DNA of 64,000 nt. Source: a virus. The stretch lies in IMG/VR virus record IMGVR_UViG_3300031707_000005, positions 20,624 through 84,623 of that record. One strand, written 5' to 3'. The notes beneath the pieces were generated by a model. It did no database searches and was not told the origin of the DNA. It saw nothing but the letters and a program-made list of their open reading frames with translations. Every line of letters starts with the position of its first letter. Positions within the stretch are counted from its first letter, which is position 1. The translations under genes and the position numbers were made by a program. Below are positions 22,194 through 55,203 of the stretch, piece after piece.

Positions 22194-22978
22194 GTTCTCA
22201 TTATCTCCTTGAAATGTCGCCTAAACTTATCATCCCCGATTTTTTTCCAAATATCACCAGCATCTTTACCGGCTCCAGGGATACCATATTTTACGTCAAC
22301 AATGTCGAAATCAAACCCATGCTGATGAATGAAGCTTTGCGCACCCTTCCTACCAGCTGAATCCAAATCGAGACACAAATAAATACGACGAACAAAACGT
22401 TTTAAAAAACGAACTTGAAATGTACCGGCACCAGCAGTAGTAAGAGCAAGAACGTCAGGGCGAATAAGACGTTCCATTATGAGTTGATCCCCCGGACCCT
22501 CAACTAGAACAACTTCTCGAGAGGACCAAATAGACTCCATGTTCGGACCGATACCAAAAAAGTACCCCTCTGGACGCCTCTTTAAAGCAAATGTGTCATA
22601 TTCTTTTCGATCAAGAGATCGAATTTGAAAACCAACAGCTTTACCGGAGTATGAAGTAAGAGGAAATACGACACCGCCAGTTATGCGACGGCCAACATGT
22701 CGAGTTTTCTTTGATCCTTCTTCAGGAGCTTCCCACACCGCAGACCAGTTTCGATAATGACAGGAGTCACACCAAAGGTGTTTCTTTTCCCAATCACTAC
22801 ATACTTCATTATGACCCTGGTCGTGTGTCGGATCAACGTCGAATTCACCGCCAACAAATCCGAGTTTATGCTTCGACCATTGTTCTTTCGATATACCACG
22901 ACCAAGAAGATACTCTTGAGCACGTTCGGAGTTTTCGAGATGGCCATTCGCCCATTCAATGAACTGTTCTACGAACAT
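22190..22978 (-). CDS. DNA primase with TOPRIM domain
   Basis: The start at MFVEQFIEWANGHL (22978) follows the upstream stop as TGA-T-ATG. A longer frame to 23044 would overlap that gene. The roughly 262-residue protein has an N-terminal YLLGRGISKEQW-type helical entry, a possible zinc site (CSDWEKKHLWCDSCH), then a TOPRIM fold with REVVLVEGPGDQLIMERL (conserved Glu) and IYLCLDLDSAGRKG (DxD). This is the bacterial DnaG/T7 gp4 primase type without a helicase domain. It would prime lagging-strand synthesis. It belongs to the replication operon with translational coupling on both sides. Confidence 0.85.
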   Translation of the reverse strand: MFVEQFIEWANGHLENSERAQEYLLGRGISKEQWSKHKLGFVGGEFDVDPTHDQGHNEVCSDWEKKHLWCDSCHYRNWSAVWEAPEEGSKKTRHVGRRITGGVVFPLTSYSGKAVGFQIRSLDRKEYDTFALKRRPEGYFFGIGPNMESIWSSREVVLVEGPGDQLIMERLIRPDVLALTTAGAGTFQVRFLKRFVRRIYLCLDLDSAGRKGAQSFIHQHGFDFDIVDVKYGIPGAGKDAGDIWKKIGDDKFRRHFKEIMRT

Positions 22979-22979
22979 A

Positions 22980-23597
22980 TCATTTACGGGGACAAAACGC
23001 GATACTATGCTTAATGTTGTGAAGCACAATACTTGACTTACCACCTAGAATTTGAGTATACATCCCAACGAAATCAGGTCTCGATAAAAAAATCGGGAAT
23101 TTCACCCCACACTGTTGAATGCGACATGTTTTTTTATATACAGAAACCGTATCACGTGTTCCATCTGAATTAGAAGGAGTTGATCCATGAGTCAAATTAG
23201 ATTTCCCGGCCCATTTTTCAAGTTCTTTCTGACTCCAAGATAATGGAACTAGCACACAGTGAGGCTGTGCCTCGGTCCCACTCTGCTTTTGTAACCAGTT
23301 AAATGCAGACTCTGATGTCTTATGGATATTATCCCATTTTTCACTAAGAGAAAGCTCATAAGCCGCATTCATAAGATCGGGAATAATCTCATCTAAGCGA
23401 TCAGAGTCATACTTAAAAACACCAGATCTTATCATCCCGTCTACAAGTTTTCTTGCAACACTAAACTTCGGCGTTGATAAACTTACAACAGCCGGTAAAA
23501 ATGATGGCTTTGCTGGAACTTCAATCCAAAAGATCGTCCCGTCAACCCCACGTTTGTACTTATGAAGATCGTGATCAAGTATTCGAAGAAGGATCAT
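22980..23597 (-). CDS. Hypothetical protein, 205 aa, replication operon
   Basis: Not recognised. It starts inside the last codons of the upstream gene and ends one base before the primase start, so it is coupled to both. The middle contains a long helical stretch (SDRLDEIIPDLMNAAYELSLSEKWDNI) and a central hydrophobic strand (HCVLVPLSW). Two Cys pairs are scattered without a clear zinc motif. A primase or replication accessory factor is possible from location only. Confidence 0.6.
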   Translation of the reverse strand: MILLRILDHDLHKYKRGVDGTIFWIEVPAKPSFLPAVVSLSTPKFSVARKLVDGMIRSGVFKYDSDRLDEIIPDLMNAAYELSLSEKWDNIHKTSESAFNWLQKQSGTEAQPHCVLVPLSWSQKELEKWAGKSNLTHGSTPSNSDGTRDTVSVYKKTCRIQQCGVKFPIFLSRPDFVGMYTQILGGKSSIVLHNIKHSIAFCPRK

Positions 23598-24150: not shown

Positions 24151-24788
24151 GTTACGTCTCCGGATCCACCGGATCTAATCCGCTTAAGTTTTAGGCTACC
24201 GTCTTTATGACCTTCATATGCCACATGAGCATGAGATATGAATTCCGGATTATGGGTAACCATTAAGATATTGATCCCGGTCTGTTCCGATAACTGACGC
24301 ATAAAATCAGCACAAGAAGGAACATATCCATTCCAAAGAGCTGCCATTGACTCATCAAGCAAAAGAAGATTCCCCATACCCATACGGGCCATAACGGCGA
24401 GTCGAAGTACTAAAGAAATAACGACAGCAGCACCACCACCAAATGACGCAAGTGGATCACCCTCATTCCCATCTTCCTCAACTATGAAACGCATAGCTAA
24501 ACGATTCTTTTGAGGGTCTTGGCGAATATGGAAAGATAACTCTTGATCACCAAGGACATGCCTCAACCCCGTAGTAGCCAGTTGAGCGATGGAGTTCACA
24601 TTCTTGTCAAGAGAGTCTTCAAGCCAAGTTTTGAAAACTTCAGTACACTTCTGATGTAGATCAGCATTATATCTGAGACTTTTTTCTAAAGTTTCAGCAG
24701 CATCGGCTTGAGAGACAAGAATGTCCCTGTACGCTTTCAACCTGGAAACATCATTTCTTAATTGCTTCAGACGATCTAGTGACGTCAT
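24147..24788 (-). CDS. SbcC/Rad50-like ABC ATPase C-terminal lobe (no Walker A)
   Basis: The ATG at 24788 overlaps the upstream stop (TGATG). Residues 1-70 are helical or coiled-coil. Then come ASFGGGAAVVISLVLRLAVM (ABC signature, about 120-140), LLLLDESMAAL (Walker B with catalytic Glu, about 152-162), and LMVTHNPEFISHA (the H-loop His). These are the C-lobe elements of SMC/Rad50 ATPases. No P-loop is present, so ATP binding would need a partner carrying the N-lobe. Next to it are a coiled-coil gene (25920) and an Mre11-like nuclease (27102). A split SbcC is the best guess. Confidence 0.78.
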   Translation of the reverse strand: MTSLDRLKQLRNDVSRLKAYRDILVSQADAAETLEKSLRYNADLHQKCTEVFKTWLEDSLDKNVNSIAQLATTGLRHVLGDQELSFHIRQDPQKNRLAMRFIVEEDGNEGDPLASFGGGAAVVISLVLRLAVMARMGMGNLLLLDESMAALWNGYVPSCADFMRQLSEQTGINILMVTHNPEFISHAHVAYEGHKDGSLKLKRIRSGGSGDVT

Positions 24789-25918
24789 CACGTCCCTCTT
24801 TCTTTCATCGCCTGTAGAAAATGCCGTGAACGAACACTAAAAACTTTCACTCCAAGTTTTTTAGTGTCACATATTTCTAAAATTGTCGGGGATATTTTAT
24901 GTTGAAACCTAAACAGAATTTTTTCTGATTCAGTATATGAGATAACCCCAGCAAGTATATCCGCCGGGAAATCCGCAGACATCGAGTCACCAGATAAAAA
25001 TGAAATAGGAAGACTGGAAACTTCTTGACCATTACATGACATAGTCATGGAGCCATCAGACATCTTAAAAGAAACGCGACGAGTTCCCTCACGAGCCATG
25101 TTAGCCCACTGAAGAGCTTTAACTAATTGCGATCTATCAACTTCAAATTCAACGCCATACCCATCATCTGGAAGAACTTGAAGAGAAGGTTTATTACAGG
25201 AAATTCGACTAAATGATATAATTGACCCTGACTTAGGATCAGATAAAAACATCTTTGTTCGGTCCTGGCCGATTACAACATCATCCCCAGATGATTTTGA
25301 GCAAAAAGCTCGCATAACCGGAAGATCATCTGATACAATGGATAGCTCGAGAGCAAGGTCATCCATATATGCGACCGTTGCATAAGTACGAGCATTTGAA
25401 TAACCGCACTTTTCAGTCGGATAAAAGTGAACTTGATTCACTTTTCGGTCTTCATCTGTTTTCGTTTTTTTAACTAATGCAGAACACGAAAGCTGATGAA
25501 GAAGCTCTTCAAATTTTTTCGCGGAAACAGAAGAACCAGACATGGACGGCTTAGGTGACATTGGTGAGCGTCTAGCCGAATCGACACGTTTTTTAACAAC
25601 AGCTTGACGAGTTTGGCCATCACCATCAGCTTTAATCGTTAAACCTTTGTCATTAACAGATAATGTAACTTTAGTGAGCTCACTATCAAAAAATGCAGAC
25701 CTGTCAACAGACAAATAAAAATCGTCAGAAGAACTTCCGTCTGAGTCCGATGACTGAGATGAAACAACGGCATGAACCTGACGACGTCGGTCTGTTGAAT
25801 TAATCCAAAGATCGTTACCAACAACACGAAGAACATAATCTCCAGACATCGGGCGAACCAATTTCACCATAGCAAAACCACGACGTAAATCGTCGGGAAG
25901 AAAAAATAACTTCGTCAT
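24788..25918 (-). CDS. Divergent sliding-clamp-like protein (DnaN-type)
   Basis: The 376-residue length and the internal pattern suit a three-domain beta clamp. Residues about 268-360 hold VEFEVDRSQLVKALQWANMAREGTRRVSFKM, then MTMSCNGQEVSSLPISFLS, then ADILAGVISYTESEKILFRF, which follow the strand-helix-strand order of a DnaN domain. A Ser/Asp-rich insertion lies at 52-66 and a Ser/Pro linker at 115-130. It sits in the same operon as the clamp-loader ATPase and primase, and the loader would need a clamp. The similarity is weak, so fold prediction should decide. Confidence 0.6.
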   Translation of the reverse strand: MTKLFFLPDDLRRGFAMVKLVRPMSGDYVLRVVGNDLWINSTDRRRQVHAVVSSQSSDSDGSSSDDFYLSVDRSAFFDSELTKVTLSVNDKGLTIKADGDGQTRQAVVKKRVDSARRSPMSPKPSMSGSSVSAKKFEELLHQLSCSALVKKTKTDEDRKVNQVHFYPTEKCGYSNARTYATVAYMDDLALELSIVSDDLPVMRAFCSKSSGDDVVIGQDRTKMFLSDPKSGSIISFSRISCNKPSLQVLPDDGYGVEFEVDRSQLVKALQWANMAREGTRRVSFKMSDGSMTMSCNGQEVSSLPISFLSGDSMSADFPADILAGVISYTESEKILFRFQHKISPTILEICDTKKLGVKVFSVRSRHFLQAMKERGT

Positions 25919-33099: not shown

Positions 33100-34218
33100 A
33101 TGTCACAAAATCGTATCAATGAACTAAGGTCAAGTCTCAAAAAATGGAGAGACGCATATTATAACTTGGATCCGAAAGTTTCAGACCAAGAATATGACTC
33201 AGCCAGGGATGAACTGGCAGGACTATCTCCAGATGATACGGAAATTATTGCAATAGGTGCGACACCATCTCAACACTCTGTATGGGAAAAAGTTCGACAC
33301 GAAATACCGATGGGATCACTCGGAAAAGCAAATTCTGAGAAAGAAATTGATGACTGGATTGAAAAAACAGGCGCAAAAGAGTGGTTCATAACACACAAAA
33401 TTGATGGATCATCCATGGAGCTCGTTTACAAGTCCGGAAAACTAATAAGATGCGTAACTCGAGGGGATGGAATTATCGGTGAAGATGTGACAGTAAATGT
33501 GTCAAAAATTCCATCAGTCCCGAAATCTTTACCGATGCCTATAGATACGATTGTACGCGGGGAAATAGTGATGTTGAAGAGTGTATTCACTCAGAAATAC
33601 TCAGAAGAATATGCAAATCCACGAAACACAGCAGCCGGAAAAGTGCGTGAAAAGAAAGGTGGAGGAGAAGCGTGTAAAGACCTTGAGTTTCTCGCCTATT
33701 GGATTCATTTCGAAAAACAGGCAGATAAGCAAAATGGCATGTTTGCATCCATACTTTGGCTCAAAGAGAATGGATTTAAAACTCCGACATGCACTGTAAG
33801 TCGAAATCTAGATACTATTAAATCGGTATATACTGATCAGTCGACAAAAAGAGACGATATAGATTATGAAATAGATGGAATGGTTGTTTCCGTCGAAGAT
33901 TTAAATCTAATCGAAGAGTTAGGTTCAATTAATGGGCGACCAAGAGGTCAGATCGCGTGGAAATTTGATCCCGCCATGCGAGAAACAAGAATAGTTGACG
34001 TAAAATGGCAAGTCGGTAACTCTGGAAGAATAACGCCTGTAGCAGTAGTAGAACCGGTTGATGTCGGAGGAGTTACAATAACAAATATATCCCTACATAA
34101 CCTATCACTATTTCGAGATCTCGCCTTAAATAAAGGAAATCGAGTCCTTGTGTCACGTAGAAACGACGTCATTCCGTTTTTAGAAAAGAACCTAGATATT
34201 GATATTGATCAAGAGTGA
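33100..34218 (+). CDS. ligA: NAD-dependent DNA ligase, N-terminal adenylation and OB part
   Basis: The 372-residue protein holds the NAD-binding Ia region (AYYNLDPKVSDQEYDSARDEL), the adenylation site ITHKIDGSSMELVY with catalytic K100, then TRGDGIIGEDVT (motif III region) and DYEIDGMVVSVED. The closing segment GRPRGQIAWKF...VGNSGRITPVAVVEPV through LVSRRNDVIPF is the OB fold. It stops exactly where LigA's zinc finger begins, and that piece is encoded at 31587-32390 on the other strand. It is one of few plus-strand genes in the replication region. The two products must meet in trans, unless the N-half works alone. Confidence 0.92.
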   Translation: MSQNRINELRSSLKKWRDAYYNLDPKVSDQEYDSARDELAGLSPDDTEIIAIGATPSQHSVWEKVRHEIPMGSLGKANSEKEIDDWIEKTGAKEWFITHKIDGSSMELVYKSGKLIRCVTRGDGIIGEDVTVNVSKIPSVPKSLPMPIDTIVRGEIVMLKSVFTQKYSEEYANPRNTAAGKVREKKGGGEACKDLEFLAYWIHFEKQADKQNGMFASILWLKENGFKTPTCTVSRNLDTIKSVYTDQSTKRDDIDYEIDGMVVSVEDLNLIEELGSINGRPRGQIAWKFDPAMRETRIVDVKWQVGNSGRITPVAVVEPVDVGGVTITNISLHNLSLFRDLALNKGNRVLVSRRNDVIPFLEKNLDIDIDQE

Positions 34219-34421: not shown

Positions 34422-34937
34422 TCAGACTTGAATTTCACCGATATACGGAAGGTTCCGATGTTTCTCCTGATAATCCATACCATATCCAACAACAAACTTA
34501 TCTTCAATAGTAAACCCGGTATAATCGATTTTCACTGGAACTCGAGTTCTACACGATTTATGTAAAAGAGCACAAATCGAAATGGAAGCTGGTTCTCTAG
34601 TTTGAAGAATTTTAATTAAGTGTTGAATTGTAAGTCCAGAATCAACAATATCCTCAACAATAAGTATATCTTTTCCCTTAATAGACCGTGTTAAGTCATG
34701 AGTGATCATAATGGAACCGGAAGACGTTCCACCATTATACGAACTAATACCGAGAAAATCAACAAACGTATCCGGAAGCTTAATGGTCCGAATCAGATCA
34801 CCAGCAAAAACAAAAGACCCCTTTAACACAGGAATCATCGTTAATGGACTCCTAGCGAAATCCTGAGTGATAGCCTGTCCGATCCACGAAATGCGATTAG
34901 CGATACTAGACGCTGATATCAATTCGCGAATCGGCAT
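34422..34937 (-). CDS. hpt: Hypoxanthine-guanine phosphoribosyltransferase
   Basis: The 171-residue protein has the full type-I PRTase layout. It has a hood and N-terminal core, FVDFLGISSYNGGTSSGSIMITHDL, and the PRPP motif ILIVEDIVDSGLTIQHL (about 93-110) with the conserved Glu-Asp pair. It also has KIDYTGFTIEDKFVVGYGMDYQEKHRNLPYIGEI, the purine-contact loop and closing. It would salvage hypoxanthine or guanine into IMP or GMP. This is unusual in phages and fits the purine-focused set here (purZ, nrdJ, dNMP kinase). The gene is two bases from the next start. Confidence 0.95.
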   Translation of the reverse strand: MPIRELISASSIANRISWIGQAITQDFARSPLTMIPVLKGSFVFAGDLIRTIKLPDTFVDFLGISSYNGGTSSGSIMITHDLTRSIKGKDILIVEDIVDSGLTIQHLIKILQTREPASISICALLHKSCRTRVPVKIDYTGFTIEDKFVVGYGMDYQEKHRNLPYIGEIQV

Positions 34938-35202: not shown

Positions 35203-38200
35203 TCAACTACAACCTGTCGTAGTTCCACATGAGGAACAAAGATAACAAGAACCATTACGTTGAGTTATGTTACCACAACGAGCACATGGAGGACCGCCAA
35301 GGTTCTTACGCGGCGTCTTTATCGTAGCATCAGTAGAATGTAACGGAGGCGGCGGTATTGAAGGCGGCGATGAATGGTATTGATCCGATACTTCATCCTT
35401 CGCAATGCTTTCATTAACGTCGTTGTCCGACTCATCAGAACGATTAGAAAGACCGGAGTGTTCCCCATTATAATAATGAACATCAAGAACTTTGAACATA
35501 TAATCATATAAACTCTTAGCAAACCGAACTTTCTTGTTCGTTGTCATCCCAGCGGGTTCAAATCGGGTATCGATGAAACTTGAAATAAGTTTCGGTAAAG
35601 GAATCCCGTATTGAATGGCAATAGAACAGAGCTGGGTGAAACCATCTATCAGACCAGATACAGTGCTACCGGGTTTCCCGAGTTTAAGAAAGATTTCACC
35701 CGGACGACCGTCAGGATACTCACTAACAATAAGATATCCCTTATATCCGTCAATTTCAAACTTATGCCGCCAACTCTTAACATCATTCGGCATTTTCTCA
35801 CGACGAACAACAGGAACTTGAATTTCACGAACAACTTCTCTGATGTTCATGTCAACGGCTTTTAAGGCCGCTTGCAGTGAATCCTTGGAGTCCTTCGTCG
35901 TGAGAGGCTGAGACGCCTTACACTTATCACGATATAGAGCTATACACTTCAAACCGAGACGCCACGATTCTTCATAAATCTTAGCAATCTCGTCAGAGGT
36001 AACGCTCTCAGGAAGATTAACAGTCTTGCTCATCGCACATGTAATAAGTGGCTGGATGGCAGCCATCATTTTGACATGCGCCATAGGCGATAGATACCGC
36101 GCCGATGGACCGGCAGGCATCGCAGTGTCGAAAACATGAATATGCTCGTCCTTTAGACCGGGAGCTCCTTCTATCGTGTCATTAGATTCGACATGATTGC
36201 AAATCTCTGCAACTTCATCTGTCGAATATCCGAGATTCACCAGGGCCTCGCGAACACCGAAGTTGATGAGCTTCATTACGCCGCCACCGACGAGCGACTT
36301 ATAACTCACAAGTGAAAACGCCGGTTCGATACCAGTAGTGTTCATTCCCATCAGGAACGATATAGTTCCGAGTGGGGCCTGCAGTGTGGCTTGAGAGATA
36401 TTATAGCCGTACTTTTCACCAAGAGAGATGGCTTCTTTCCAGACTTCAGCGGACAATGAAACCACGTCATCATTGACCGGATCCTTCGGAAGGTGCCAAC
36501 GCTCGATGATTTTTGCATCAGCTTCCTGATGCATTCGCATCACGCGAAGCATATCTTCACGGTTCTTCTCGAATTCAGAGAATGCGCCGACACGAGCAGC
36601 AAGCTTTGCTGATGTTAGATAAACAATTCCGGTCATGAGAGATGCCATGCGAGCGGCAACAGCACGACCCTCATCGGAATCATATCCATAACCGAGATTC
36701 ATGACGAGCGCACCAAGATCACCATAGTTAGTGCCAATGGGACGAAGCTTTATTGAATTAGACCCGATTTCGTCAGTCGGATATGCAGCCTTCGCAACAA
36801 TAGCCATCTGAGCGGTACTAAAGATTCTCGTGGCTTGAGTAAATCTCTCAGGAACAAATTTGCGGCCATCGAAAAACTTCGTCAGGTTAATCGCACAGAG
36901 ATTACAGGCTGTGTTGTCAACATGAAGGAATTCACTACAATTATGAGCAACAATCCCGTTTGCGATGAGCGAACTAGTTTCAGGCTCGGTAATGTCGTAA
37001 ACGGGAACAATCTCACCATTGTTAATCACACGGACAACATCATCTGTCCATTTATCGCGGCCGTTATGATTAATTGAATCAGGAATATCGGAGAATCGAG
37101 CTTGTTTCCTATCAGAAAGCAATCCGATTGATTTCATAAGATTTCTGAAAGTTTTAAGACTCTGGCCAGTGATAACAAGATCATTTGTCTTCTCTTTCGA
37201 GAAATACGTTCGAGTTTCGCCCGACACTGTCGTATATGAAAACGTCGGTTTATCGTTAGGACGACGATCTTTGTAAAGAGTGCTGTTAACACCAAGATTC
37301 AAAAGAAGATCCTGGACTCCGCGTAGAAGTTCAAGACTAGTAGAACTAAAACGAGCGTCAACATTCTTCTTCGGTTGAATATTGAAAGTCCCATCTGCAG
37401 AAAAAAGACCAGCAAGAAATGCAAGTTGTTCCTGAACTGTTGATCGAAAAACGGCATCCATGACTTTTTTAGTCGGAGCTTTAGACCCAGGTTCACAAGC
37501 CCAGACCAACATGGATTCCCAAATGGCTTTCCTGTGAATCCGAATATAATCCGGGCTTTCACCGACAGATCCATTTTGATATTTTTGAGAGAATGGGATG
37601 TCTTGATCACGGAAAAATGCAAGAATCTTATCCATTGCATCTTTGTCATCTTTACCAAAAACGAGCCCAACTTCGTGAGTATTTCTACAAGGAAGTGCTT
37701 TCAAGATCCATCCATCACCAACAATCCACCCAGCAATCTTGTGCCACATGAGATCAAGACCAGATGACTCCGTCGAGTATGCACCAACTCCGGCTTGCAA
37801 ACAAAGAACACTATCTTCCGTCAGATCGGATGCCTCTACCCACCCATCAGTCGTCATAAGACGATGATCAGGGGTTACCTTCAGTATTCTACCTCTTCTC
37901 GTATGAACTTCAACAACATTTTTCACACCAGTCGGAAAAACTGTGGCTGCTTTCAAAACAGGTCCATCTGGTGTTTGAACGAGAGTCAAAAATTTCGAAG
38001 AACAACCTGATGACTCGAATTCTGCACACAAATCTTCAATACGTACTAAGCCAAGCTCAGTGGCAATGCGAGTATCGGGATGGAAGCATGGATTTGAAGC
38101 ACGAATCTTCCCATTCTTTGGGGTAGTGTGCCACTTGTTTATATTGTCGGAGAATTGAACGCCCGGGTCACCACAACGCCACGCAGCATCGGCAACTTCT

Positions 38201-39219
38201 TTCCAAATTTCACGAGCTTTGTAGTTATGAACTACTTTTCCACTCTTACGCTCACGAGTTTGCCATGAACCGTCATCGAGCATGGTTTGCATAAACGCGT
38301 CAGGAACAGATACAGAGTGATTTGCGTTCTGATATGGAACTATTTTGTATGCACCATTCGGGTCGTCATACTCTGCAGAATAACCAATAGAAACAAGATC
38401 ATGAGCAAGCTTCTCCGACCACGACTTGCAACGAATGAAACCGGGACGACCATCACGTGTTTCAAGAATGTCAGGATGATCCATATCCATAACAACCATC
38501 TTCGCTGCGTTTCTCGTAGCACCACCCGATTTCATCGCACCAGCGTATGAATTATTCCCCTGCATCCAAGACATCGGACCAGAAGTATACGAACCAGCAG
38601 AAATCTTTTCATAAGAAGAACGGAGATTTGATAAATTAGCACCGGAGCCGGATCCACCACGGAAAATGGTAAGCTCTGACGTCTGAAAACGCATAATGTC
38701 ATCAAGAGAATCTTCAACACCAGAAATGAAACAAGCCGAAGCTGCTTGTTTACGACCTTCAACACCAAGGTTAAACCAAACCGGAGAATTAAATGCTCCG
38801 TATTGATGCAAAAGAGCATGAATAAGCTCTTCTTCAAATACTTGAGCATCAATTTCAGTATTGAAAAAGTTCTGTTCTTCCGCCCAATTTCGAATGGCAC
38901 AACAAACACGAGTAAACATTTGCTTTACTGATGTTTCACGAACACCATTAACAACACGAAGATATTTATCTGCTACAACATTTACGTTATTTTGAGTCCA
39001 CCAAGCAGGAACCTCAATATTCTTTTGTTCGAAAACAATCTCACCTTTACCATTACGAATACAGGCATCAGCAGTCTTCCATTCAACTTGGTCAAACGGA
39101 TGAGATCCTTCTGAGGTAAATACACGAGGCCAATGACCCGCATCGCGTGATATCAAGTCCTTAGTGGAGTGAGCCCTAAGGTTTACTACTGGTGCGGATA
39201 TAGCCTCAGTGTTTGACAT
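35203..39219 (-). CDS. nrdJ: Class II (B12-dependent) ribonucleotide reductase with intein
   Basis: After splicing out a 383-residue intein the enzyme has 955 residues. It shows NrdJ features: QYGAFNSPVWFNLG (early loop), FQTSELTIFRGGSGSGANLS, then NP-CSEFLHVDNTACNLCAINL with the catalytic Cys, GTISFLMGMNTTGIEP, and the C-terminal double CxxC (CARCGN...CYLCSSCG) for electron transfer. It reduces ribonucleotides without oxygen or an iron subunit, needing host or imported cobalamin. Strong AGGAGG is upstream of the ATG. It feeds dNTPs to the phage replisome and shares the operon with clamp-loader delta. Confidence 0.95.
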   Translation of the reverse strand: MSNTEAISAPVVNLRAHSTKDLISRDAGHWPRVFTSEGSHPFDQVEWKTADACIRNGKGEIVFEQKNIEVPAWWTQNNVNVVADKYLRVVNGVRETSVKQMFTRVCCAIRNWAEEQNFFNTEIDAQVFEEELIHALLHQYGAFNSPVWFNLGVEGRKQAASACFISGVEDSLDDIMRFQTSELTIFRGGSGSGANLSNLRSSYEKISAGSYTSGPMSWMQGNNSYAGAMKSGGATRNAAKMVVMDMDHPDILETRDGRPGFIRCKSWSEKLAHDLVSIGYSAEYDDPNGAYKIVPYQNANHSVSVPDAFMQTMLDDGSWQTRERKSGKVVHNYKAREIWKEVADAAWRCGDPGVQFSDNINKWHTTPKNGKIRASNPCFHPDTRIATELGLVRIEDLCAEFESSGCSSKFLTLVQTPDGPVLKAATVFPTGVKNVVEVHTRRGRILKVTPDHRLMTTDGWVEASDLTEDSVLCLQAGVGAYSTESSGLDLMWHKIAGWIVGDGWILKALPCRNTHEVGLVFGKDDKDAMDKILAFFRDQDIPFSQKYQNGSVGESPDYIRIHRKAIWESMLVWACEPGSKAPTKKVMDAVFRSTVQEQLAFLAGLFSADGTFNIQPKKNVDARFSSTSLELLRGVQDLLLNLGVNSTLYKDRRPNDKPTFSYTTVSGETRTYFSKEKTNDLVITGQSLKTFRNLMKSIGLLSDRKQARFSDIPDSINHNGRDKWTDDVVRVINNGEIVPVYDITEPETSSLIANGIVAHNCSEFLHVDNTACNLCAINLTKFFDGRKFVPERFTQATRIFSTAQMAIVAKAAYPTDEIGSNSIKLRPIGTNYGDLGALVMNLGYGYDSDEGRAVAARMASLMTGIVYLTSAKLAARVGAFSEFEKNREDMLRVMRMHQEADAKIIERWHLPKDPVNDDVVSLSAEVWKEAISLGEKYGYNISQATLQAPLGTISFLMGMNTTGIEPAFSLVSYKSLVGGGVMKLINFGVREALVNLGYSTDEVAEICNHVESNDTIEGAPGLKDEHIHVFDTAMPAGPSARYLSPMAHVKMMAAIQPLITCAMSKTVNLPESVTSDEIAKIYEESWRLGLKCIALYRDKCKASQPLTTKDSKDSLQAALKAVDMNIREVVREIQVPVVRREKMPNDVKSWRHKFEIDGYKGYLIVSEYPDGRPGEIFLKLGKPGSTVSGLIDGFTQLCSIAIQYGIPLPKLISSFIDTRFEPAGMTTNKKVRFAKSLYDYMFKVLDVHYYNGEHSGLSNRSDESDNDVNESIAKDEVSDQYHSSPPSIPPPPLHSTDATIKTPRKNLGGPPCARCGNITQRNGSCYLCSSCGTTTGCS
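36940..38088 (-). other. Intein (383 aa) with LAGLIDADG endonuclease inserted at the nrdJ active-site Cys
   Basis: The intein starts CFHPDTRIATELGLVRIEDL (Cys codon 38088-38086) and ends SSLIANGIVAHN, with the next residue Cys of the extein (36939-36937). Block B is TPDH. LAGLIDADG motifs are IAGWIVGDGW and LAGLFSADGTF. The C-terminal HN-Cys is canonical. The extein junction becomes ASNP-CSEF, so the insertion is at the conserved catalytic Cys that gives the mature enzyme its activity. All splicing residues look intact. Confidence 0.93.
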
Positions 39220-40126
39220 TCTTCACCTCCTCAGACATTCGAATAATTTCAGACTCTAAACCAAAACGAGCCGATTCATCACCGCGCTTATGCGCGACAT
39301 CTAAATCGCAAAGAGTATGGAAACTAACCATTAAAGACTTCCTAGACCACAGACCACATCTTGTAGATATAAACTTTTTGAAAACGAACGGATGAACACC
39401 GAGAAGTTCAGCTGCGCGATCATCTGAAAGTTTACGTTCAAGTGCTTCTTCAAGTTTAAGTTGTTGCAATACGTGACGTTGCATGTACGCAATAATCCAT
39501 CCAGTTTCTTCAGCTCGATCTTGTAACTTGTCATAGTAAGCAAGGGCCCTGACTGTATGTCCATCACATACAGCATCTATAACTTCACGCGGACTGATCT
39601 CCGCAGAGAAAATTATGAGAGAACGGGCTTCTTCTGGAGAAACAACGGTACCTGGAGAGGTTGCTGCGGCAAGTTTTTCAATTTCTGAATGAAGCTTACG
39701 CAGACACGTTCCTGAGTTCACAAAAAGAGCACCCGCAATCCTGCTTAGATCTATGTTAAAAGACTGGCCCTCTTTTAGAATCCACTTAGTTACTTCGTTA
39801 TTGTTACTGAATGACTTTAACTTCGGAAAAACAAGAGAACGCTTCGCTCTTTTATCTTGAAGTACACGCTTTCCTGAAGGAGAAACACATATAAGTGTAT
39901 CTATACCGGACTCAGGAAGATTTGGTATTTCTTTTACGTCCCAAAGGATAAAAACACGTGATATACCGGACATCAGCGGTACTTGTGAATCGTATGAATA
40001 CGATTCAAGTCCTTCAGGAAGAGTATATTCAATAACTTCAGAAGCTAGTGATGAAGCTGCTTCTTGTCTTGCTGCTCTCTCCATCAAGAAGTCTTCTTCG
40101 CCACTGATAAGAATGAGAGAGGACAT
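39206..40126 (-). CDS. holA: DNA polymerase III delta-like clamp-loader subunit
   Basis: The ATG at 40126 (MSSLILISGEEDFLMERAARQE) is chosen. A TTG start three codons earlier is less likely. The roughly 306-residue length and the motifs SGEEDFLMERAA (N-terminal wrench-like start), VNSGTCLRKLHSEIEKLAAAT and a helical C-terminus with LEEALERKLSDDRAAELLGVHPF match HolA. It lacks an ATP site, as expected for delta. Together with delta-prime (40137) and the DnaX-like ATPase it could form a complete clamp loader. It overlaps the RNR gene start by 14 bases. Confidence 0.78.
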   Translation of the reverse strand: MSSLILISGEEDFLMERAARQEAASSLASEVIEYTLPEGLESYSYDSQVPLMSGISRVFILWDVKEIPNLPESGIDTLICVSPSGKRVLQDKRAKRSLVFPKLKSFSNNNEVTKWILKEGQSFNIDLSRIAGALFVNSGTCLRKLHSEIEKLAAATSPGTVVSPEEARSLIIFSAEISPREVIDAVCDGHTVRALAYYDKLQDRAEETGWIIAYMQRHVLQQLKLEEALERKLSDDRAAELLGVHPFVFKKFISTRCGLWSRKSLMVSFHTLCDLDVAHKRGDESARFGLESEIIRMSEEVKNVKH

Positions 40127-40136
40127 GAGTATCAAA

Positions 40137-40940
40137 TTACATTAAGAGGTCGGAAACCATTCTCATCCAATGAACATCAGTATTGGCAGAAGTAGAATTA
40201 GATAAAACACTACAAAATTTAAGAATTGGAATCGATATAGACTTATTGAAAAAATATGGTTTACAAGCACAGCGAATCGTATGAATAACAGCATCACGAG
40301 TAAGACTATATCCATTTTCAAGATCGGATATTACTTTCGGTGGCTTTGAAAAAATAGACAGATCACGCTTTGCTGCAGAAATTATAGAGTTGTGAAGTTC
40401 TTCAAAACCACCGGTTTCCACAATTAGTTTATATAACTCCGGAAGACCACATGCCATCACAAGAATGTCGTTAGACACAGGAACGACGAGAGATGAAGCA
40501 TATTCTCGCATTTCGTCCATAGAAAGTGGTGTAAATCTGATTTCTGCACGGATTCTAGAAGACAGAGCTGGTTGTAAAAGGCCGACATCGTACGCAATAA
40601 GTACGATGACTACAGAATCAGGAGGAGACTCAGACAACTTCAAGAGAGCATCCTGCGCTGGTTCAGAAAGACGATCAGCATCGTCTACGAGAATAACTTT
40701 TACTAGACCACCAACCGGCTCAGTACGGGCAAATTCAACAACTTCTCGAGCTCCGTCGATACCGGATCCCATTTCCATGAAATCCGATTCATGGAAATCT
40801 CTTGAGAGAAGTACTTTAATAGAAGTACTTTGACACAAAAAACGAGAACCAGTAATAGCAATGACCGACGGATTATTCGGGTTTTTCCTCAACAGAAAAC
40901 TCTGGAGGCAGGATAGCTGGTTGTTGTTCCCCCGGTTCAT
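40137..40940 (-). CDS. holB: DNA polymerase III delta-prime-like clamp-loader subunit
   Basis: The 267-residue protein keeps the AAA core. The P-loop position reads AITGSRFLCQSTSI, so Walker A is lost. It has VILVDDADRLSEPAQDALLKLSESPP (Walker B and sensor region), and SSRIRAEIRFTPLS in place of SRC. Inactive P-loops are normal for delta-prime. The start overlaps the upstream zinc gene by 68 bases, so the true start may be a downstream TTG near LQSFLLRKNP. It is followed by the delta-like gene within ten bases. Confidence 0.78.
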   Translation of the reverse strand: MNRGNNNQLSCLQSFLLRKNPNNPSVIAITGSRFLCQSTSIKVLLSRDFHESDFMEMGSGIDGAREVVEFARTEPVGGLVKVILVDDADRLSEPAQDALLKLSESPPDSVVIVLIAYDVGLLQPALSSRIRAEIRFTPLSMDEMREYASSLVVPVSNDILVMACGLPELYKLIVETGGFEELHNSIISAAKRDLSIFSKPPKVISDLENGYSLTRDAVIHTIRCACKPYFFNKSISIPILKFCSVLSNSTSANTDVHWMRMVSDLLM

Positions 40941-45403: not shown

Positions 45404-46150
45404 ATGATAAAGGCAACGAAAACGCCTAGGAAGACAAAGAAGGCTCCAGAGCTACCTAACGACGTCGAAATCAAAGAGGCGGTAGAGAAATGTATCAAGA
45501 GAATCGCGGGACCGGTTGAAGCATCATATTTACGCGTATGGCTTTTGGAAGTGGTCCGGAACAATGCTATCCCGATAAGCCTTCTTGAGTATCTTCCAGT
45601 CCCAGCAGCGGAAGTTGGAAAAACAAGATTTGATCAGTTATATGACGCTTCCATGGCTCTAGTATACCCCGGTTATTCGAAAGAAACGCTTGAAAGACTT
45701 CTAGGGCCTTCACCAAAAAAAGGCATCAAAATATGGAGGGTAATTCTTCCAGAAAAATTCAAGATAGCTCATGTCTTAATACGGGCAGAAAGTTTTCAAA
45801 AAGCGTTTGCTTTAGGGTGTGATTATACGTGTAGGATGTCTCTCCGCTTATACGGGAAGATACCGACTGATGTGACCATAAGAGTGATCTATATGACCGA
45901 AAGAGCTTTAAGAAGATATCTAGATTTAAAGTGGGCGAATAGAACATCACGTCGTAGAAAATTTAAACTCGAGGGTAGAGAAATAACGCAAAGGCAGATA
46001 AACGGGGTTCGTTTGTTTGCTCTCGGTTCTACGAAAAGTCCTTTGTATAGTGTGGCCAGATATTGTGAGAAAAAAGATTTGGACCGTGTAAGAAAATCAA
46101 AAGGACTTTCACGAGAGTCGTCTGTGGAGACCGAATCTAGGCAAGCGTAA
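45404..46150 (+). CDS. Hypothetical basic protein, 248 aa
   Basis: Not recognised. The N-terminus is very basic (IKATKTPRKTKKAPELP). The middle alternates helices and strands (ASYLRVWLLEVVRNNAI, IWRVILPEKFKIAHVLI). The C-terminal quarter is Arg/Lys-rich (WANRTSRRRKFKLEGREITQRQINGVR), consistent with nucleic-acid binding. It precedes purZ by about 50 bases on the same strand and may share its promoter. No strong ribosome-binding site is visible. Confidence 0.65.
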   Translation: MIKATKTPRKTKKAPELPNDVEIKEAVEKCIKRIAGPVEASYLRVWLLEVVRNNAIPISLLEYLPVPAAEVGKTRFDQLYDASMALVYPGYSKETLERLLGPSPKKGIKIWRVILPEKFKIAHVLIRAESFQKAFALGCDYTCRMSLRLYGKIPTDVTIRVIYMTERALRRYLDLKWANRTSRRRKFKLEGREITQRQINGVRLFALGSTKSPLYSVARYCEKKDLDRVRKSKGLSRESSVETESRQA

Positions 46151-46202: not shown

Positions 46203-47399
46203 ATGCAAGAGGGAAAACTGAACGTGTTGTTGGACGCATTCTGGGGGTCATCCGGTAAAGGAAAGACGTCCGCATGGCTTGCCGATAAATTCGGGGTAAC
46301 ACGAGTCTCAAGTTCAAATTTCCCGAATGCAGGTCATACAGCCGCATTTGAAGATGGCACGAAGTTCATAGCAAAAGCTATTCCGACGGCTGCAATCTTA
46401 AAGAAAGTTAAAGGAGTCGGGATGCAGTGCTGGTTATCTCCTGGTTCCGGATATGACTGGAATCAACTAATTAAAGAATGGGTTGAATCTGAAAAGCCGG
46501 AGATCAATATCCACTCACGTGCGTCAATCGTAACAGCAGAACACAAACAACGTGAAGCCAGTGGTTCAGAATCTACGAAGCATATTGCAAGTACGATGCA
46601 GGGTTCAGCCACAGCGATTGTTGACAAAGTCTTACGAAAAGCAGACTGTCAACTTGCAGAAACGATCGACCCGCGCATTATGATTGAGTCTCTATATGAG
46701 TCAAATCCAGTAACGCGTGATATTTTAGATCGTAGCGGAGCTTTACAAGAAATTGATCGAATTCGTGTTGTTGATGCGTTAGTTTTTCGTAAACTAACTC
46801 ATAGAGCACTTCGAAGCGGCCATACTTGGTTACATGAAGGCTCTCAAGGATACGCGCTTTCCATTGATCACGGATCTCATTATCCATTTTGTACGAGTCG
46901 AAACTGTTCAGTTCAAGCTGCCATGGATCATATGGCGGTTCCCCCGTCGATGGTAGGTGATGTTTATTTAAATCTACGAACTTTTCCAATTCGAGTAGGA
47001 AATGTCATTGAAGACGGAGTCCAAAAAGGTTTTTCCGGTGACTTTTATCCTGACTGTCGTGAAATGACATGGGAAGAAGTCGCGGCTGAGTCTGGTATGC
47101 CTCCTGAAGAAGCTAGAATGCTTGCTGAACGTGAAAGAACCACAGTTACGAAGAGAATTCGACGTGTCTGTAATTTTTCGTTTGAAGGACTTAAGGACGC
47201 TGTAGCAGTAAATGGCGCGACGAAACTAGTTATGAATTTTATTCAGTATATTAATTGGGAAGATGCCGGATGTGTTGAATTCGACAAACTTTCAAAAAAG
47301 AGTCGCGAGTTTATTTCGAAAGTTGAAGAAACTGTAAACGTTCCGGTCGTTTTAGTTGGAACCGGAGCACTTCATAATGAAATGATTAGTCGCTTGTGA
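46203..47399 (+). CDS. purZ: PurZ-type adenylosuccinate synthetase (2-aminoadenine pathway)
   Basis: The 398-residue enzyme has a clear PurA/PurZ fold: LLDAFWGSSGKGKTSAWLADK (9-29), then SSNFPNAGHTAAF with the active His, GSATAIVDK, LHEGSQGYALSIDHGSHYPFCTSRNCS, and TTVTKRIRRVCNFSFE. In PurA the loop is WGDEGKGK, where the Asp is the catalytic base. Here it reads WGSSGKGK, so Ser16 replaces that Asp. This replacement distinguishes PurZ, which joins aspartate to dGMP on the way to the 2-aminoadenine nucleotide, as in S-2L and phiVC8. Host PurB would finish the conversion. GGAG lies seven bases before the ATG. Confidence 0.87.
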   Translation: MQEGKLNVLLDAFWGSSGKGKTSAWLADKFGVTRVSSSNFPNAGHTAAFEDGTKFIAKAIPTAAILKKVKGVGMQCWLSPGSGYDWNQLIKEWVESEKPEINIHSRASIVTAEHKQREASGSESTKHIASTMQGSATAIVDKVLRKADCQLAETIDPRIMIESLYESNPVTRDILDRSGALQEIDRIRVVDALVFRKLTHRALRSGHTWLHEGSQGYALSIDHGSHYPFCTSRNCSVQAAMDHMAVPPSMVGDVYLNLRTFPIRVGNVIEDGVQKGFSGDFYPDCREMTWEEVAAESGMPPEEARMLAERERTTVTKRIRRVCNFSFEGLKDAVAVNGATKLVMNFIQYINWEDAGCVEFDKLSKKSREFISKVEETVNVPVVLVGTGALHNEMISRL

Positions 47400-47620: not shown

Positions 47621-47856
47621 GTTCAAAAGTATTCGGCGTCGGCGACGTTACAATATGTTCAAATCAAGAAGAACTACGATTATATGTAGGTCATCTTGAG
47701 GTGAGTTACATTAAAAAACTGGAAGTGAAATTCGAGAATAATAAAGCATATATAGATGTATCGTTCTTCACCAGTCATGAACCAGAAACAGCTAAATCAA
47801 TAGAAGAAGCTGTTAGAACTGTCAAAACTATTCCATGGATTCGCGTTAATCCGTAG
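47617..47856 (+). CDS. Small hypothetical protein, 79 aa
   Basis: It starts MSSKVFGVGDVTIC (ATG 47617); an upstream in-frame ATG at 47599 would overlap the previous gene. It is a compact alpha/beta sequence with LYVGHLEVSYIKKLEVKFENNKAYIDVSFF. It overlaps the convergent minus gene by 11 bases. No family is recognised. Confidence 0.55.
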   Translation: MSSKVFGVGDVTICSNQEELRLYVGHLEVSYIKKLEVKFENNKAYIDVSFFTSHEPETAKSIEEAVRTVKTIPWIRVNP

Positions 47857-48412
47857 TATTATCGCGTTTTTTACGCTTCAGGTGTATACCAATTTGGTCA
47901 GGATTAGCATTCATATATTCATAGCATGATTGAAAATACCCGTGTACCGGTTTGGCGGCGTCACGTAGCATGAGAGCTTCGAAAATTATTTGTTTATTAA
48001 CTTCAGACCACAACCATTGTTCTGTAATTGGAACGTCCGGCGCGCTTTGACTCCAAACATTTCCATAAGGAAACATCATTAAAATGAATTCTTTTTTATC
48101 AAAATGTGGTTGCGGGAATGCTATAAACTCTTCTTTTCGTTTAATTGACAAATAAACACCATCTGGGAGATCTATCCCTTCAGGGGTTTTCGTTACCCAT
48201 CGCTTAATTGACATCCATTTAACTTCAGGAGCTTTAAGACCCATCCCTTTCCGACATGAAAGAGAACAGTTGTAAAGAGCGGAAGGTGATAGGTTGGACT
48301 CCCATGGCTTAAACCCATTCGGTATGTTACTGAATGAGTGGAGGGACTTAATGAATGGTGTCTTCATCACCGAAACCCGTTGCTGTACTTTTCGTAAGAT
48401 TTCTGAATCCAT
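47846..48412 (-). CDS. Hypothetical protein, 188 aa
   Basis: The ATG at 48412 (MDSEILRKVQQ) is preferred because the longer frame would overlap the divergent thyX-like gene. The protein is mixed alpha/beta, with two Cys close together (YNCSLSCRKG), hydrophobic strands (EFILMMFPYGNVW) and a basic end (IHLKRKKRDN). It is not recognised. Confidence 0.6.
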   Translation of the reverse strand: MDSEILRKVQQRVSVMKTPFIKSLHSFSNIPNGFKPWESNLSPSALYNCSLSCRKGMGLKAPEVKWMSIKRWVTKTPEGIDLPDGVYLSIKRKEEFIAFPQPHFDKKEFILMMFPYGNVWSQSAPDVPITEQWLWSEVNKQIIFEALMLRDAAKPVHGYFQSCYEYMNANPDQIGIHLKRKKRDNTTD

Positions 48413-48427
48413 CAGGAGAACTCCATA

Positions 48428-49777
48428 ATGACGACCGGGCCGGATGTCTTTTGTCTTCGAGGTGTCGATGGTCGACTCCTCCCGCCAGCTGTCCAAGCAA
48501 CTGTACTAGCTAAATATTCACGATCCCCATTATCAGCTCGCGAGATTGTTCAGAAACTGACTGAAGAAGAGGCTGACAAATTTCAGGAGAAATTTGTAAT
48601 TGAGTATAACCACTCAAGTGTAGCTGAGTTAGCAGCTATACCAGTTTGTTTTGAAGGAGTTTCAATCGTCGCGTCAAAATTCCTCGAGTCTTTTCAACGA
48701 ATGGGTTATTCCGAGAAGAGTACTAGATATCAAATTTTCACTAGAAACTCTTTTATCACCCCTCCAGGAGCTCCTTCAACTATGAAGGAATTCGCAGCCC
48801 GGTTTTATGACACATATGAACGTTTATATCCGCGTGTAATTCGTAGATGTGCAGAGCTGATGGGGAAAGACCCAAATGACCCAAAGGTATTAGAAGATAG
48901 AACCGTAAAAGCAAGAGCCTTTGATAATGTCAGATACCTCTTGCCTGCTGGCACAGGAACTAATTTGGCCGCTGTTGGATTTCTTCGTGATTTCCGCTAT
49001 ATGATTCAAGAGGCACGCGGACATTCAAACCCAGAGATTCGTGCTCTTGGTGATGATACTCATAAAGCCGTTTCAGAAATTTGTCCAGTTTTGGTTAAAA
49101 AAGCCGACGCGGACACCTTTGAACCGACGATTAAATCACTTGGAAATCTGCCATCAACCATAAATTTTGAGAAACCGTCATGGTATGTTGGTTTATATAA
49201 ACCACACACTCTCGGTGAACCGGAACTTGTCCAAAAAGCCTTCATTTCTACATTGGCTGATCGGTATGGAATGAGTTGGTCTGCATTCAGCAAACTCATG
49301 GAAGAACGTGGGAAAAGAGCCGTACCTAAAATTTTTCGGACTGTCAGAATATCATTCGATATGATGATGGACTATGGTGCATTTCGAGATTTACAAAGAC
49401 ATCGTCGTTGCGAACAGTATGTAGAACCGCTAACTTCACATTACGGCTATTTAGTTCCAGACGATATAATCGGTACTGACATGGAAGCCGAATACCGAAC
49501 TACGATGGAGCAGGTCCATTTATATGAAGATGATCGCGTGTCACATGACATGGACCTGATGCAGTATGTAATACCTCTTGGGTACTTACATAGATCAGTC
49601 TTCGAAATGGACCTTCAAGAGTTATACTATATGACTGAGCTCAGAACTCAGCCACAAGGACACATTTCATATAGAAGAGTCGCTTATGAAATGGCAAAGG
49701 TCGGCACGAAGTTGTATCCAGAGTTGATGCAGTGGTGTAAGGCGACTGCTCCAGATAACATCGGACTTCACACTTAA
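48428..49777 (+). CDS. Two-domain ThyX-like protein (FAD-dependent thymidylate synthase family)
   Basis: The 449-residue protein seems to be two fused ThyX units. The first (residues 20-200) contains FQRMGYSEKSTRYQIFTRNSF, resembling the substrate half of the ThyX motif. The second contains FDMMMDYGAFRDLQRHRRCEQYVEPLTSHYGYLVP (the RHR motif, near 310-345) and ends with YMTELRTQPQGHISYRRV. Bacterial two-domain members of the family look alike. Classic ThyX reads RHRxxSxNExSxRY within one domain, and here the two halves are divided between the domains. It may supply dTMP, or a modified pyrimidine, but catalysis is not assured. Confidence 0.7.
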   Translation: MTTGPDVFCLRGVDGRLLPPAVQATVLAKYSRSPLSAREIVQKLTEEEADKFQEKFVIEYNHSSVAELAAIPVCFEGVSIVASKFLESFQRMGYSEKSTRYQIFTRNSFITPPGAPSTMKEFAARFYDTYERLYPRVIRRCAELMGKDPNDPKVLEDRTVKARAFDNVRYLLPAGTGTNLAAVGFLRDFRYMIQEARGHSNPEIRALGDDTHKAVSEICPVLVKKADADTFEPTIKSLGNLPSTINFEKPSWYVGLYKPHTLGEPELVQKAFISTLADRYGMSWSAFSKLMEERGKRAVPKIFRTVRISFDMMMDYGAFRDLQRHRRCEQYVEPLTSHYGYLVPDDIIGTDMEAEYRTTMEQVHLYEDDRVSHDMDLMQYVIPLGYLHRSVFEMDLQELYYMTELRTQPQGHISYRRVAYEMAKVGTKLYPELMQWCKATAPDNIGLHT

Positions 49778-52568: not shown

Positions 52569-53507
52569 CTAAGAATTGACAGCTTCTATAATTTTCTCAG
52601 AAAGTTGATCCGGTCCAGGAGCTTCGTCTACAGAAAGATGGAATCCGGCAGCTCGTTCGTGACCTCCCCCACCGTAATACTTAGCGATGACGTTAGCTGC
52701 AATCTTTTCGTTCGTTCTTATGGAAACGCTGATCTTCATCGCTCCGTCTTCGAACAAGTGAAAATAACCGATTGCTACATCAGCACCTTCATTTAGAAGT
52801 GTGTGCGCAACATCCGATATAATTTTTTCCGTGCAGTTAAAATAGGCGGTTTTCAGTTCCCCGATTTTGGTTTGAATTGGTTTCAAGTATGCGCCACGTG
52901 CAACAAGCTTCGTTTTACGTTCTGCTTGCTCGAGAAGAGATAAACCAAGACCACTTAATTCATTGAACTGAAAATCACCAGAACCGACTATTTCAATCAA
53001 TTTCTTCGAACCATGAAACTGAAGAGCCATTGCCTGCGCGCATGCTTCTCTCCATCTCGGATGGTCCTGTTTCCACGTATCTCGAATCATGGCGAGTTCA
53101 GCCAAATCTCTCCATCGGGCCAAATCTTGAATTTCGCCGTTTCCAGATCCTGCAATAGCAGAAAGAACATGATCATATGCTAGCATGGCTCCAGAATGCG
53201 TCTCATTTAGTCCATATATACCACCAAGACCTTCAGTCACCTGTTTGGCGGTTTCGTGGTGGTCTAGAATTATCGGAGAATACGCTTTCCATTCCTCCCA
53301 TCGAGGAATTGGTGGTGTGATATCAACGAAAAGTTGACCACTACGAGGCTCAAGCCTCGACATAAAATCAGTTCCATACTGAATCGAATAAAATTCAACG
53401 TCCGGACCAAGAGCGGCGCGACAAATCATCGCCGCAGCAGTCCCATCGGGACATGACTCATGGAACAGAACTTCCTTCACCATTTTTAATTGATCGATGG
53501 TTATCAT
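52569..53507 (-). CDS. DHH-family phosphoesterase (NrnA/RecJ-like)
   Basis: The 312-residue protein carries all DHH motifs: HESCPDGTAAA (D21), FVDITPP (D62), ILDHHETA (82-84), and the DHHA1 GGGGHERAAGF near residue 285. Proteins of this type hydrolyse short oligonucleotides or cyclic dinucleotides. As a phage enzyme it might recycle nanoRNA or degrade signalling nucleotides such as c-di-AMP or defence-related cyclic oligonucleotides. The start overlaps the stop of the dNMP kinase gene by four bases. Confidence 0.9.
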   Translation of the reverse strand: MITIDQLKMVKEVLFHESCPDGTAAAMICRAALGPDVEFYSIQYGTDFMSRLEPRSGQLFVDITPPIPRWEEWKAYSPIILDHHETAKQVTEGLGGIYGLNETHSGAMLAYDHVLSAIAGSGNGEIQDLARWRDLAELAMIRDTWKQDHPRWREACAQAMALQFHGSKKLIEIVGSGDFQFNELSGLGLSLLEQAERKTKLVARGAYLKPIQTKIGELKTAYFNCTEKIISDVAHTLLNEGADVAIGYFHLFEDGAMKISVSIRTNEKIAANVIAKYYGGGGHERAAGFHLSVDEAPGPDQLSEKIIEAVNS

Positions 53508-54493
53508 GGTATGTATGTTTCCTGTAGTTCTGGAAGAACAAATGATGGGTCCCAGTTTTTACCGACCCAGGATGGACTAGAGCATGTCTTTACAATAATG
53601 TCTATATTATTGTAAAGATCGTCGAGAGTCGAGTCATTGTTAATGATGAAATCGTATGCAGCGTCACGAATGCGAGTTTGTTCAGTTTCTGACCGATGAT
53701 TGAATGGAGGTTTCGTGACTGTCGGACGCTTAATTCTGATGAGCACCGGAACGAGAGTTTCATCTGCCGCGTTCTTAGCAAGACGGTGTTCATGAATATG
53801 GCGAAAATCAGAAAAACAAGTTATAGATAATAATTTTTCGGAGCCGAAATCCGAATTATAATATGGTGGACCCTTTAGTGTGATTCCATTTGATTTAGAA
53901 TAAACGCACCTACCAGCTGCGAGCATGCGATGGTCTTCGATGCCTTTCCGTATCCATGTATCCGCATAAAGAGTATTCATGAGCTCCATATACTTTTGGA
54001 GCGATTCTCGTGGAGAGAGCCACAGAACTGAATCACCTTCTCGAGCAAAGAAACGAAATAAATCTGCCGCATCTTTATTATTTATCTGATATGGTTTGTT
54101 TGTAAATAATGCTCCAATATGTGAATTTCGTTTTAACCATGACGAACACCATACAGGTCCGCTACCTGATATGAATGGCTTCCCATCCATATCTACGTAT
54201 GGTCTACCATGGTCGTCTTCAGCAGGAAAAATGTCATCTGGAACATCTCCTTCCCATGGTCGCAGTCGAACTTCATCGATGACCGGTTTCGGGTATCTTC
54301 GATCACCGGCATTCCGAAATGCCGATGGACCCCACAGTTGTTCATCAGAAAATCCGTAAGCGTCTTTCATATGACGCTTTCCCGGATCAGCTAAACCGGT
54401 GTGGACAGCACCATGAATTTTAACAAGCCTACCGGCACATTCGTCTTTGCCGGTTCCGGCCCATCCGGAAACACACACCATTAGATGTCGCAT
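53504..54493 (-). CDS. Deoxynucleoside monophosphate kinase (T4 gp1-like)
   Basis: The 329-residue protein starts VCVSGWAGTGKDECAGRL (P-loop, residues 9-17). LSPRESLQKYMELMNTLYADTWIRKG matches the LSPREALQ-type substrate motif of T4 dNMP kinase, and CFSDFRHIHEH corresponds to the VSDxRFxxE region. A long insertion of about 80 residues (50-130), with Pro/Gly-rich sequence, is not usual. With purZ in the window the enzyme may also phosphorylate an unusual dNMP such as dZMP. It is followed by the DHH gene with an ATGA-like overlap. Confidence 0.75.
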   Translation of the reverse strand: MRHLMVCVSGWAGTGKDECAGRLVKIHGAVHTGLADPGKRHMKDAYGFSDEQLWGPSAFRNAGDRRYPKPVIDEVRLRPWEGDVPDDIFPAEDDHGRPYVDMDGKPFISGSGPVWCSSWLKRNSHIGALFTNKPYQINNKDAADLFRFFAREGDSVLWLSPRESLQKYMELMNTLYADTWIRKGIEDHRMLAAGRCVYSKSNGITLKGPPYYNSDFGSEKLLSITCFSDFRHIHEHRLAKNAADETLVPVLIRIKRPTVTKPPFNHRSETEQTRIRDAAYDFIINNDSTLDDLYNNIDIIVKTCSSPSWVGKNWDPSFVLPELQETYIP

Positions 54494-54513: not shown

Positions 54514-55203
54514 TTAGCGTCCGTCGACGCTTTTAATTTGAATAGTTCCGAAAGTAGATGCAGAGTACCAAAGTGCAAGGTCTACAATTCCGAGAGGAAC
54601 GTCATCTTCTTCTCTCATTGAACGGCACATCTCTTCACAATCTTTGAAACCCCAGTGTTCAGCCATACGTACAAGATGCAAGTCTGGTTTCACACAATTG
54701 AGAAGTCCAATATTTCTACCAAGATGGTACCTGGTTATCTTCCCTATGTACGGCAGTTTTCCAATTTCTTCCACGCTTGAAAGATTCTGGTTTTTCCAGT
54801 CACTCCATCCCATTTTATTATTTACGTCGTTTACTAATTTTTTCGCAGTTGAATGAATGGCTTTCGCTTTTTGAGGATTGTTGCAAACAAGTTTAACCCT
54901 CTTCATTACGTCATCAAATTTTTCAAGTCCACATTCGTCCCATGGGCTATATGCTTCAAGAAGTTTTGGCATAAAACTACCAACGGCTTTTGCTGAAAAG
55001 CCCGTCGCATGCACGACCCATATATACTCAACAAAGAAAAAATCAGGAGTTACATCTTCTAACTTAACAGAAGAAATTCGGTCTACTTCATCACCATAGA
55101 ATTTCTTCGCAAAGGCCATCGCCTTTTCGTAATAAGCTCGAGGTCCGGCTGAAATATCGGGTCGAAAATCTTCAGTTCCAGAAAGGATTCGATGTGGTTC
55201 CAT
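54514..55203 (-). CDS. HhH-GPD superfamily DNA glycosylase-like protein
   Basis: The 229-residue protein holds a helix-hairpin-helix LPYIGKITRYHLGRNIG (150-166) and VKPDLHLVRMAE (171-182), in which D174 is the glycosylase Asp of the GPD/VPD motif. The upstream VEYIWVVHATGFSAKAVG resembles the substrate-binding region of 3-methyladenine/OGG types. A base-excision role on damaged or modified bases fits a phage that may carry unusual DNA bases. The Fe-S cluster of EndoIII is absent. It overlaps the neighbouring Cys gene by 32 bases. Confidence 0.7.
   Translation of the reverse strand: MEPHRILSGTEDFRPDISAGPRAYYEKAMAFAKKFYGDEVDRISSVKLEDVTPDFFFVEYIWVVHATGFSAKAVGSFMPKLLEAYSPWDECGLEKFDDVMKRVKLVCNNPQKAKAIHSTAKKLVNDVNNKMGWSDWKNQNLSSVEEIGKLPYIGKITRYHLGRNIGLLNCVKPDLHLVRMAEHWGFKDCEEMCRSMREEDDVPLGIVDLALWYSASTFGTIQIKSVDGR

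Follow-up and report, generated by a model that had tools for sequence, protein, structure and literature searches.

A PurZ-type enzyme conserved in jumbo phages points to a possible further lineage with 2-aminoadenine DNA

We analyzed a window of 64,000 nucleotides, bases 20624-84623 of a linear IMG/VR record of 84,623 bases, and found that it encodes an enzyme of the PurZ family within a gene block shared with jumbo relatives. From the residues, fold and phylogeny of this enzyme and the gene content of sister genomes, we consider it probable that the phage uses it to supply dZTP and builds DNA in which 2-aminoadenine (Z) stands for much or all of the adenine. With somewhat less assurance, we favor the view that these phages form a third Z-DNA lineage of jumbo genomes (about 250-436 kb), combining a non-DpoZ PolA and a bacterial-type clamp and loader with an altered-gate DatZ-family enzyme and, in some members, PurB. 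The source record is a fragment (84.6 kb) of a tailed phage, as its terminase and portal genes indicate. Two features of the window are listed here:

8964-10910, - strand: terminase large subunit, the mark of a tailed phage
46203-47399, + strand: PurZ (predicted succino-2-aminodeoxyadenylate synthase), with Ser16, His45, T313 and N345/F346/Q348

In the pathway we propose, PurZ would join aspartate and dGMP into N6-succino-2-amino-dAMP (dSMP), spending ATP or dATP. An adenylosuccinate lyase, either the host's or phage-encoded as in ten relatives, would turn dSMP into dZMP, and kinases, possibly including the phage's own dNMP kinase, would make dZTP. A DatZ-family HD hydrolase, its gene lying elsewhere in the genome, would lower the dATP pool, as would PurZ itself if dATP is its energy source. 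The phage replisome, in which a PolA-family polymerase works with a clamp and loader of bacterial type, would then put Z in place of much or all of the A. An alternative that we regard as unlikely accepts a real PurZ that makes dZ nucleotides but supposes a lack of strict discrimination by both polymerase and HD hydrolase; the DNA would then be partly Z-substituted, or Z synthesis would mainly drain dATP and dGTP.

Residues, fold and phylogeny of the PurZ-type enzyme

The reading frame at 46203-47399 (+) is open and encodes 398 residues of the adenylosuccinate synthetase (PurA/PurZ) family. It matches PHROG 1211 (PurZ) at E=1.4e-56 and Pfam PF00709 at E=2.7e-34, and its top-scoring NCBIfam model is that of PurZ (NF038379, E=4e-55). 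These matches are far beyond chance, although the NCBIfam score of 187 bits falls short of the curated threshold of 300; the enzyme misses the thresholds of the PurA models by a wider margin.

We mapped the active site using the residue list of the S-2L PurZ crystal structure (PMC8342488). The loop reads FWGSSGKGK, bearing out the claim of the first-pass annotation that Ser16 takes the place of the catalytic Asp of PurA. Ten dGMP-pocket residues are kept (N42, A43, H45, T131, R145, Q215, T231, R264, V265 and R320), and departures from the S-2L pocket occur at A129, F229 and A389, the last of which is also Ala in Burkholderia phage Bm1. T313 corresponds to the PurZ-specific loop Thr (T273 in S-2L), while N345, F346 and Q348 correspond to N305, F306 and Q308, which surround the adenine in S-2L. 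PurA and PurZ0 both have Asp at the Q348 site, and both PurA hallmarks, catalytic Asp13 and the GTP-site Asp, are replaced in the window enzyme (Ser16, Gln348). Ser16, T313, N345 and F346 are invariant in the jumbo PurZ sequences aligned (25/25), in which the Q348 site is Gln (21), Asn (3) or His (1). Across a wider set of 88 retrieved relatives, the G-S-x-x-K-G loop was found by pattern in 85, and the other three have GSCGKG or, when aligned, Ser. Comparison of purZ with five relatives gave dN values of 0.19-0.30 with synonymous sites saturated, which indicates purifying selection. In two relatives (L055 and L064) the purZ reading frames are longer, at 821 and 807 aa, and hold an intein directly after the catalytic His45 (NAGH/C...HN/T, slashes marking its ends); the window's NrdJ is likewise intein-bearing.

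The first-pass annotation had called the enzyme PurZ-type and proposed structure prediction and a PurA/PurZ phylogeny as checks, and both agree with the residues. The AlphaFold model is confident (pLDDT 93.1, pTM 0.92), and its top five PDB matches are the PurZ structures of phiVC8 and S-2L with dGMP. In a maximum-likelihood tree, the jumbo PurZ sequences form one clade (95/95) that adjoins the classical PurZ clade (98/98) without falling inside it, and the two together are separated from PurZ0 and PurA at 99/94. The next-best structural match after the PurZ crystals is an archaeal PurA (PH0438, 5k7x), and this shared fold is what speaks for the enzyme being a plain PurA, converting IMP to adenylosuccinate, with a neutral Asp-to-Ser change. 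That reading, which the first-pass annotation had also raised, is highly improbable: Ser is present in every relative retrieved, the GTP-site Asp has become Gln, the loop Thr and the N/F pair are of PurZ type, and the tree groups the enzyme with PurZ. A PurZ0-type enzyme acting in a Wayne/Ghobes pathway with DutZ/DmtZ deserves equally little credence, since, although two relatives (G006 and G007) encode a DutZ-like dUTPase, PurZ0 retains Asp at position 348 and occupies a separate clade, and neither DmtZ nor DUF5664 was found in the genomes read. We rejected both readings on residues and tree, and PurZ chemistry for the window enzyme is, on these data, very likely.

Relatives and the conserved gene block

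At 40-77% identity, the closest relatives of the window's purZ come from 29 further IMG/VR contigs, the longest of which measures 436 kb; below that set, identity falls to 29-36% and the IMG/VR contigs measure 4-64 kb. A search of 50,697 phage records found its best cultured-phage match in the PurZ of Bm1 (33.9%), and a DNA-level search against cultured phages gave no match. The window's phage belongs to an apparently undescribed group whose genomes reach 436 kb and all carry purZ. The block NrdJ-delta-delta'-g072-sigma-g074-g076-purZ-g080-thyX is strongly conserved in about 17 records, which marks purZ as a core gene and not cargo. The genes of the window that bear on nucleotide supply and replication, or that flank purZ, are:

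20161-21600, - strand: DnaX-like clamp-loader ATPase
22190-23044, - strand: DnaG-type primase (DNAG_N and Toprim)
24788-25918, - strand: beta sliding clamp-like protein (weak Pfam match; conserved among sisters)
33100-34218, + strand: NAD-dependent DNA ligase, adenylation and OB domains
34422-34937, - strand: Hpt-like purine phosphoribosyltransferase (PF00156)
35203-39219, - strand: NrdJ class II ribonucleotide reductase with intein
39206-40135, - strand: DNA polymerase III delta-like clamp-loader subunit
40137-40940, - strand: clamp-loader (delta'-like) subunit
45404-46150, + strand: g076, conserved orphan directly upstream of purZ
47846-48496, - strand: g080, conserved orphan between purZ and the thyX-like gene, kept in 17 core relatives
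48428-49777, + strand: ThyX-like tandem protein with two Thy1 stretches
53504-54493, - strand: dNMP kinase-like protein (PHROG 139)

The purine and dNTP set described in the first-pass annotation stands for hpt, NrdJ, the dNMP kinase-like gene and the ThyX-like gene. A Nudix gene was found neither by motif scan nor among the subset of window ORFs scanned with Pfam. The ThyX-like protein is of double length and lacks the canonical RHRxxS motif, and it may carry out different chemistry. A fold search with the confident model of g080 (pLDDT 86) returned no PDB match below E 0.07. Beside the dNMP kinase, g088 (54514-55203, -) has by eye the look of an HhH-type DNA glycosylase, and Pfam gave nothing significant for it.

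The DatZ-like hydrolase and the polymerase

The first-pass annotation saw no DatZ, MazZ or DNA polymerase gene, and, within the sensitivity of the searches, this holds for all 84.6 kb of the record: searches for PolA, DnaE and HD families found none, and PurB is absent from the record as well. It had also named the lack of any dATPase in the full genome as evidence against Z. We took this question to the sister genomes, and there the PurZ reading was not refuted: seven core relatives (G001, G002, G003, G004, G006, G008 and G011) carry a gene for a DatZ-family HD hydrolase. Full reading of four sister genomes placed this gene some 10 kb away from polA and 130-205 kb away from purZ, a distance too great for a fragment of 84.6 kb that surrounds purZ. 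The window's own genome, known from this fragment, presumably carries DatZ-like and PolA genes too. G006 has identical 127-base ends and is probably complete; it holds purZ, the HD gene, polA and the DutZ-like dUTPase gene, and searches of it for PurB and MazZ found neither.

The best PHROG of the HD protein is 'dATP triphosphohydrolase' (1e-16 to 1e-20, near the score of S-2L DatZ itself), and by Pfam it is a YfbR-like protein. In the four proteins aligned, all metal and phosphate residues of DatZ are conserved, W20 is replaced by Tyr, position 79 (P79) is Thr or Pro, and I22 is replaced by Ser or Thr, so that the gate for the 2-amino group is Ser/Thr where DatZ has Ile/Leu/Met. In S-2L DatZ, I22 keeps out the 2-amino group, and the I22A mutation weakens dATPase activity and permits slight dZTPase activity (PMC8065100). 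Because the gate has changed and I22A has these effects in S-2L, we do not accept the HD protein as a proven DatZ and class it, by its sequence, as a DatZ-like family member.

Scanning IMG/VR for this HD subfamily returned just 15 contigs, seven of them purZ-positive; the other eight comprise five from metagenomes with a purZ-positive fragment, two near-copies and one weak match. PolA relatives sought as independent contrasts all belonged to the same clade or looked like its fragments. The association of DatZ-like and PurZ genes is thus not independent and may reflect only a single shared ancestor. PurB is encoded in 10 of 30 records, among them the nearest sister of the window's purZ. MazG-like genes occur in three relatives only (G007, G008 and G011), and MazZ was not found in G001, G003 or G006; the PF04447 search, silent on its own controls, is uninformative. 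A divergent purZ-positive jumbo branch (G005, G007 and G017) has a DnaE polymerase and lacks the DatZ-like HD gene.

Replisome genes of the window include those for delta, delta', DnaX, beta and DnaG-like proteins, and the core relatives have a PolA about 950 aa long. Like DpoZ-1 and DpoZ-2, it is a PolA-family protein with a 3'-5' exonuclease domain. Unlike them, it retains the motif-B Tyr that is Phe in both DpoZ groups (PMC8599892), and it falls in its own clade, which also takes in the PolA of phage LR745208 (485 kb); neither purZ nor the HD gene was found in that phage. We rejected its identification as a DpoZ on these grounds.

The missing DpoZ, the Ser/Thr gate of the DatZ-like protein and the general lack of MazZ all suit partial substitution or a drain on dATP and dGTP. 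However, S-2L keeps A out of its DNA by combining DatZ with a PrimPol that is not selective (PMC8065100), showing that a DpoZ is not required, and seven core relatives have retained a DatZ-family gene. We judge that Z is likely present in the phage DNA, because PurZ is a core gene, the core branch has retained a DatZ-family gene, PurB turns up repeatedly, and S-2L sets a precedent for doing without a selective polymerase. As the Ile22 gate is not kept and the PolA is not a DpoZ, replacement of A by Z, which we think likely, would rest on pool control or on a third polymerase solution.

Comparison with known Z phages

The PurZ enzymes of phiVC8, S-2L and SH-Ab 15497 (PDB 6fko, 6fm1, 7odx) have in common with the window enzyme the fold, the Ser-for-Asp exchange, the T-T-V-T loop, the adenine-site N-F-x-Q/N motif and the dGMP-pocket residues. 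The window enzyme differs in being longer, at about 27-34% identity to them, and in belonging to a separate jumbo clade, in which the Y203 and P336 positions vary; the genomes of the jumbo relatives are 5-10 times larger. Bm1, the closest cultured relative, has Ala at the P336 site as here, but it is a 67.5 kb phage with DatZ and a DpoZ-type polymerase adjacent. The HD protein of the sisters shares with DatZ its best PHROG and all metal- and phosphate-binding residues, and differs in the changes at Ile22 and Trp20 and in lying near polA, not beside purZ.

Known PurZ and PurZ0 systems fall into two clades, with DpoZ-1 or DpoZ-2 (PMC12884076). Neither description covers the phages studied here, and what would be new is therefore the lineage. 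The Z phages for which we found descriptions have small genomes (about 38-83 kb) and rely on DpoZ or PrimPol, and we found no jumbo Z phage in the open-access PMC literature. If our reading is true, these would be the largest known Z genomes. A widespread jumbo PurZ lineage would demonstrate that Z-DNA is workable in genomes as large as 400 kb, and that discrimination between A and Z arose again in another polymerase or can be achieved by pool control alone. It would also be a source of new PurZ, DatZ-like and PolA enzymes for Z-DNA production.

Two further observations came from the sequences collected. L032 and L234, named Acinetobacter phage MD-2021a, resemble bacterial chromosome contigs (alaS, purA, polA and crp). 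The 'adenosuccinate synthetase' of Flavobacterium phage MaF61 (L029:18052-19395) carries Ser in place of Asp13, together with the PurZ signature N/F/N, with a phage PurB gene nearby, and MaF61 is a possible unreported Z phage of Bacteroidota.
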